Source of the DNA: Armatimonadota bacterium
GTDB taxonomy: Bacteria > Armatimonadota > Fimbriimonadia > Fimbriimonadales > Fimbriimonadaceae
NCBI GenBank assembly: GCA_020438215.1
Contig: JAGQUX010000021.1
Location: 1 to 49,551, forward strand
DNA: 49,551 nucleotides
Reading direction: 5' to 3'
Under the pieces are notes generated by a model, which was not told where the DNA came from, did not search any database, and saw nothing but the letters and a program-made list of their open reading frames with translations. This document shows, in pieces, positions 46,409 through 47,723 of the stretch (positions within the stretch are counted from its first letter, which is position 1; the number at the start of each line of letters is the position of its first letter). Both the position numbers and the translations under genes were made by a program.

Positions 46409-46633
46409 TCACTCCCGAGTCCCCGCCGCGTCCCGAACCTCAGCCCCGTAATTCGTAACCGCTTCTCCCCCTTTGTCAGGAAAAAAAGTAACGGCAATCT
46501 TATCCATGCTCAAAAAGAACAAAATGATCAAAACCAGCACCACCCAAAACGCTTTAGGAAGCCCAAACTGAGAAACCGACTCACCTGAATTTGTCAGCCC
46601 ATCATGATCCGGTGGCTGTCTATGCCAATTCAT
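46409..46633 (-). CDS. Small single-TM membrane protein
   Basis: 74 aa with one TM helix (FWVVLVLIILFFLSM) after a polar N-terminus (HRQPPDHDGLTNSGE). No family recognised. Its start overlaps the last 14 nt of tgt, so it is translationally linked to that gene. The ORF is open and has no SD, so it is a modest prediction. Confidence 0.5.
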   Translation of the reverse strand: MNWHRQPPDHDGLTNSGESVSQFGLPKAFWVVLVLIILFFLSMDKIAVTFFPDKGGEAVTNYGAEVRDAAGTRE

Positions 46634-47723
46634 ACCGTTTCACCAAATCCCCCCAAGTCCCCGCCTCAATCGCCTCGCGGATTTCCCGCATCAGCCGCGC
46701 ATAAAACCACAAGTTGTGCAAAGATGCCAGCCTCTGCCCCAGCATCTCGCCGGAGTGGAAGAGATGCCTTAAGTACGCGGCGGAGTACCGCTCGGTTGCT
46801 GGGAACACCGACCCCGGATCAACCGGGCCTTCATGCTCCGCCCACTTTGCCCCTTTGATATTCACGCGTCCCTGCAAAGTGTAAAGCGCGTGATGCCGCG
46901 CCATCCGCGTTGGCAAAACACAATCAAACAGGTCAATCCCGCAGCTCACCGCATGAAGAATGTCGCCCGGGTGCCCCACCCCCATCAGATACCGCACCTT
47001 ATCCTTTGGCAAAAGCGGCGCGGCAAATTGCACCACCGGATACTGCATCTCGGTTGGCTCGCCCACACTCACGCCCCCCACCGCAAACCCTGCAAACGGC
47101 AACGAACAAATAAAATCGGCCGATTCCCGCCGTAAATCCTCGTGGACCCCGCCCTGCACAATCCCAAAGATCGCCTGCCCTTCCCGTGCCGCGTCTAAGT
47201 TCCTCTGCGCCCAGCGATGCGTTTGCTGCATCGCCTTTGTCGCCTCATCTTTGGTGCAGGGGTACGGCGGGCAAACATCCAGAGCCATGCTGATATCCAC
47301 GCCCAACTCCCCCTGAATCTGGATCGCCCGCTCCGGCGAAAGGAACAGCTCGCTCCCATCAATATGCGAGCGGAAAGTCACCCCTTCATCGGTGATCTTG
47401 CGGTTCTGGCTGAGCGACATCACCTGGTATCCGCCCGAGTCTGTCAGGATTGATCCGCGCCACCCCATGAACTTGTGAAGCCCGCCGAGCCGCTCGACGC
47501 GATCCGAGCCGGGACGCAAAGAAAGGTGGTAGGTGTTGGAGAGAACCTGCTCATATCCCATCTCTTCCAGGTCTTCCGCGCTAATCCCCTTGACCGTCCC
47601 CACCGTTCCCACCGGCATGAAGGCCGGCGTCTCTACCGTACCGTGAGGAGTGTGCAGTCGCCCCCGTCGTGCGCCTGTGTGGGGGCACTCTTTGATCAGT
47701 TCATACCTAACGCTCGCAGACAT
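46620..47723 (-). CDS. tgt: tRNA-guanine transglycosylase lacking the zinc-binding cysteines
   Basis: 367 aa. It swaps G34 of tRNAs with GUN anticodons for preQ1 on the way to queuosine. The catalytic acids are kept: LTDSGGYQV and the nucleophile region DLFDCVLPTRMAR; FGIVQGGVHEDLRRES is normal. The structural zinc site of bacterial Tgt (C-x-C-x2-C and a later His) is replaced: residues 305, 307 and 310 are Ser, Phe and Thr in DPGSVFPATER, while His336 (ASLHNLWFYARLM) is kept with the canonical 31-residue spacing. The reading frame is clean around it. It may be a zinc-free form or altered in activity. Upstream lies divergent der. Confidence 0.94.
   Translation of the reverse strand: MSASVRYELIKECPHTGARRGRLHTPHGTVETPAFMPVGTVGTVKGISAEDLEEMGYEQVLSNTYHLSLRPGSDRVERLGGLHKFMGWRGSILTDSGGYQVMSLSQNRKITDEGVTFRSHIDGSELFLSPERAIQIQGELGVDISMALDVCPPYPCTKDEATKAMQQTHRWAQRNLDAAREGQAIFGIVQGGVHEDLRRESADFICSLPFAGFAVGGVSVGEPTEMQYPVVQFAAPLLPKDKVRYLMGVGHPGDILHAVSCGIDLFDCVLPTRMARHHALYTLQGRVNIKGAKWAEHEGPVDPGSVFPATERYSAAYLRHLFHSGEMLGQRLASLHNLWFYARLMREIREAIEAGTWGDLVKRYELA

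Follow-up and report, generated by a model that had tools for sequence, protein, structure and literature searches.

The tgt gene of this member of the Fimbriimonadaceae (Armatimonadota) encodes a tRNA-guanine(34) transglycosylase (Tgt) in which Ser, Phe and Thr stand in place of the three cysteines of the zinc site. We consider it probable (roughly 0.8) that the protein is an ordinary Tgt, the sole preQ1-inserting enzyme of its genome, with a C-terminal subdomain held by hydrophobic packing involving Phe307 instead of by zinc. Judging from the comparison with its relatives, the zinc-less Tgt is real and fixed, and in all likelihood a functional variant of a well-known enzyme.

The tgt product and its former zinc loop

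Within the window, that is, the whole analysed stretch of 49,551 nucleotides, tgt occupies 46620..47723 on the minus strand, starting with ATG at 47723 and ending with a stop codon at 46622-46620, as the preliminary description had correctly placed it. Its 367-aa product scored 490.8 bits against the Pfam TGT profile (PF01702) and, for the whole protein, 459.4 bits against the NCBIfam equivalog TIGR00430, above the curated cut-off of 306.75 bits. An ORF of 74 aa at 46409-46633 (minus strand), with a single hydrophobic stretch, overlaps the 3′ end of tgt; it had no Pfam match, and the relatives checked showed no such gene downstream of tgt.

Alignment with the zinc-bearing Tgt of Z. mobilis (about 46% identity) placed S305 (codon TCG, 46811-46809), F307 (TTC, 46805-46803) and T310 (ACC, 46796-46794) opposite the zinc cysteine triplet; the degenerate loop S305-V-F307-P-A-T310 (46794..46811, minus strand) stands where zinc-bearing Tgts have C-x-C-x2-C. 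H336 (CAC, 46718-46716, minus strand) aligns with the His ligand, and its distance of 31 residues from position 305 equals that between the E. coli ligands. Alignment and codons together uphold the replacement of all three cysteines as originally described, along with the exact spacing of the retained His.

The remaining key residues, all encoded on the minus strand, are canonical. D267 (46923..46925) and D95 (47439..47441) are the counterparts of the nucleophile Asp280 and the general acid/base Asp102 of Z. mobilis, in accord with the earlier claim that the catalytic Asp motifs were kept. C151 (47271..47273) and V220 (47064..47066) match Cys158, a residue of preQ1 affinity, and Val233; this pair bears on specificity for preQ1 versus queuine, and queuine-using eukaryotic Tgts have Val and Gly there (PMC3660597). 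The aromatic cluster Phe92/Trp326/Tyr330/His333 of the Tgt homodimer interface (PMC5395182) has its counterparts in F85 and, at 46764..46787, in Y313, Y317 and H320, which is a statement about residues of the sequence rather than about a dimer. On this sequence evidence the protein is classed as a Tgt but not as a zinc Tgt, because the Cys-x-Cys-x2-Cys plus His set of the zinc metalloprotein is represented by S305, F307 and T310 with only H336 kept.

An AlphaFold2 model based on 53 homologues (model residue n = protein residue n+1) had a mean pLDDT of 93, with 94-97 across the former zinc loop, and its predicted TIM barrel and C-terminal subdomain matched Z. mobilis Tgt with a TM-score of 0.95-0.96. 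Since AlphaFold2 works without metals and the input alignment included zinc-bearing homologues, the high pLDDT there is weak evidence that the loop is stable without a metal. In predicted fold, catalytic Asps, preQ1 pocket, dimer-interface aromatics and pathway, the protein resembles the zinc-bearing Tgts of Z. mobilis and E. coli (TIGR00430), whereas their Cys3His has become SxFxxT with the His alone retained.

Distribution and history of the zinc-less Tgts

An alignment with Tgts of related genomes, the comparison proposed in the preliminary description, covered 113 genomes of the same class and revealed 88 Tgts without CxCxxC, the present one counted in. They come from the Fimbriimonadaceae (f1) and a sister family (f5) and comprise every Tgt read from both families except one, L303; in three other families of the same order (f2, f3 and f4), every Tgt covering the zinc region has the C-C-C-H pattern. 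S-F-T-H is the commonest pattern among the 88 (62 Tgts), followed by S-F-L-H (11) and S-F-V-H (6), and Phe307, present in 87 of them, is followed by Pro in about 87%. D95, C151, V220, E222 (the counterpart of Glu235 of Z. mobilis), D267, Y317, H320 and H336 are invariant in 88/88, so both catalytic Asps and the preQ1-type pocket pair are common to all, and Y313 is kept in 85. An artefact at 46795-46815 (of assembly or sequencing, or a frameshift), for which no supporting evidence was found, is refuted by the like replacement (mostly SxFxxT) in the 87 other Tgts, which come from different genomes in the two families, and by a frame that is open without an internal stop; its probability is negligible. 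The earlier judgement that a frameshift was unlikely thus holds, and the assembly error then still allowed for is ruled out. L303 (G259:C25:7765-8832) is an additional C-C-C-H Tgt in an f1 genome that also holds a zinc-less gene; this assembly is 73% complete, and the zinc-bearing copy is probably contamination.

In a tree of 101 Tgts, computed with the motif region (residues 296-345) left out, the f1 and f5 Tgts grouped as a single clade (SH-aLRT 96) within zinc-bearing Tgts of the Armatimonadota, and the tree as a whole requires the state of the zinc site to have changed at least six times. The simplest account would be one loss in the common ancestor of the Fimbriimonadaceae and f5, its polarity being read from the zinc-bearing neighbours. 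Transfer from the Bacteroidota was rejected, since the Tgts of the two families cluster as a single clade within those of the Armatimonadota and the replacement residues differ.

To judge from sequences of the phylum of Cellulophaga, the Bacteroidota, similar losses are frequent there. Of 109 Tgts read from 148 genomes drawn evenly from that phylum, 84 are without the full Cys3His site: Cys3His is present in 25, one cysteine is kept in 39, and 45 have none. As the 30 top-scoring Tgts were all read and contain 22 of the 25 zinc-bearing ones, 25/109 is if anything an overestimate. These cysteine-poor Tgts resemble the present protein in having lost the full zinc Cys triplet while being otherwise canonical, but they differ in their replacement residues (GxTxxD, AxTxxD, FxNxxC and LxxxxS versus SxFxxT in f1 and f5), in a His that is often Gln and in their separate tree branches; the differing residues imply that the losses in Bacteroidota and Fimbriimonadales were independent events. 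In the FxNxxC group (L262, L266, L268, L270, L272, L300 and others) the zinc His has been exchanged for Gln (HN to QN), which looks like a later stage in the decay of the site. A comparison of a Cellulophaga Tgt with solved structures, made under a very stringent cut-off, gave no match. The replacement is wider in scope than the preliminary description implied, being not peculiar to one gene but family-wide in this lineage and frequent in Bacteroidota. Its premise of a need for this zinc throughout bacterial Tgts seemingly fails outside the tested proteins, and is doubtful because most sampled Bacteroidota-phylum Tgts also lack the site.

H336 is invariant in all 88 although its three partner ligands are gone, and D302 is about 91% conserved, both of which would fit a metal still bound at the old place through H336 and non-Cys ligands (S305, T310, D302, E311 or water). 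However, position 310 varies among zinc-less Tgts (T, L, V, C, A, N and S) and 307 is Phe, which leaves no conserved set of alternative ligands; zinc-bearing Tgts keep D302 about as often; and in the Bacteroidota phylum the His itself has become Gln in 44 of the 84 Tgts without the full site. Such a residual metal site is unlikely, and we infer that this Tgt binds no zinc.

Selection, the queuosine pathway and proposed working

The gene is under purifying selection, with dN/dS of 0.03-0.07 in the four same-genus pairs where synonymous change was least saturated (L019/L020, L026/L027, L026/L118 and L027/L118), many other pairs being saturated and uninformative. A second intact Tgt beside an inactive copy, which had been named earlier as a possible objection, was not borne out: a search of the genome (2.64 Mb, 99.4% complete) gave a single Tgt match. 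Weak second TGT-family matches (35-67 bits) were seen beside the normal Tgt at G046:C1:287112-287945 (L138), G190:C1:156835-157896 (L293), G261:C11:8198-8824 and G237:C9:533898-534272 (L383); these are possibly DpdA- or archaeal-type transglycosylases.

The pathway search comprised QueF, QueC, QueA, QueG and QueH. The genome encodes QueF (G000:C75:14409-14639), QueC (C64:13134-13760), QueA (C86:50479-51474) and QueG (C31:142631-143557), and QueA and QueG, both of which act on tRNA downstream of Tgt, were detected in 53/53 good-quality relatives. QueH, sought as an alternative to QueG, was absent from 61/61 genomes; with QueG present, its replacement by QueH was rejected. Several f2 genomes (G037, G041, G043, G047, G053 and G055-G060) have QueA, and most of them Tgt as well, but gave no strong QueC match, which suggests that preQ0/preQ1 is salvaged there and not synthesised.

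According to the literature, TGT needs zinc in order to be active, and E. coli Tgt is reported as a zinc metalloprotein (PMC9508795). Together with the strict retention of H336, these statements count against the reading preferred here, and the zinc requirement would also fit an inactive or degenerating Tgt. Inactivity is nevertheless very unlikely in view of the catalytic Asps invariant in 88/88, the low dN/dS, the retention of QueA and QueG in all good-quality relatives and a genome without any other Tgt. Because QueF, QueC, QueA and QueG are all present, the enzyme almost certainly works.

As an ordinary Tgt, the protein would act on tRNAs with a GUN anticodon and exchange their guanine-34 for preQ1 in the usual ping-pong reaction, with Asp267 as nucleophile and Asp95 as acid/base, and its product would feed QueA and QueG. 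The C-terminal subdomain would no longer bind structural zinc; a substitute core at the former metal place, with Phe307 for the second Cys and Ser305 and Thr310 for the other two, would hold in position both the loop and the dimer-interface helix that comes after it (Y313, Y317 and H320), and apart from Phe307 filling the metal place the loop would be unchanged. The loss probably occurred once in the ancestor of the Fimbriimonadaceae and f5, like losses having arisen independently in Bacteroidota. Both the packing of Phe307 in the metal's place and the activity of the enzyme are what we infer from these data. Among the alternatives offered in the preliminary description, "zinc-free, stabilised otherwise" is the best reading, since three of four ligands are gone from an enzyme that is conserved, under selection, encoded once and set in an intact pathway, whereas "specialised" is unsupported in view of the canonical residues of catalysis and of the preQ1 pocket.

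Possible zinc economy and significance of the loss

The loss might be part of a genome-wide zinc economy of the lineage, an idea compatible with a Tgt held by hydrophobic packing and suggested by ribosomal L31, which is also cysteine-less in Fimbriimonadaceae. When L172-L186 (f1) were compared with L157-L171 (f2-f5), L31 was cysteine-less (DISAFSHPFYTG) in the f1 copies read and zinc-type (CxC...CxxC) in the f5, f3 and f4 copies read. However, in this same genome QueC retains its zinc cysteines (C...C..C..C), and the ligands of ribosomal L36 are kept in 30/30 copies read, own genome included, so general zinc-sparing does not seem to be the reason; and f5 combines a zinc-less Tgt with a zinc-type L31, so the two losses are uncoupled. 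Zinc economy is thus a doubtful explanation. We also entertain, tentatively, that Tgt has shed zinc several times (in Fimbriimonadales and on at least two occasions in the Bacteroidota phylum), converging on a non-metal core, and that this was adaptive in uncoupling queuosine from zinc supply; drift that followed a compensating substitution explains the loss just as well.

The zinc domain has been described as one of two Tgt hallmarks (PMC6165067), and the zinc ligands as highly conserved (PMC4425180). In the open-access literature we found no paper on a Tgt without the zinc site; subscription papers and database annotation rules lay outside this scope, and curators may know of such proteins. 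Zinc and non-zinc forms are described for ribosomal S4 (PMC3087516) and GluRS (PMC4381286), which offer a parallel in that a structural zinc site was lost in evolution and function kept. These are different proteins, however, and it is for Tgt that the zinc domain is called a hallmark and zinc a requirement in the sources above. From the sequences compared here, zinc is apparently dispensable for Tgt. Annotators should be wary of calling Tgt a zinc enzyme, or queuosine zinc-dependent at the Tgt step, across all bacteria. The role of the Tgt zinc is now directly testable by comparing natural zinc-less with zinc-bearing enzymes, as, by the comparison made here, an entire family within the Armatimonadota and the majority of the Bacteroidota-phylum members sampled do without a site that has been called highly conserved, a hallmark and required.
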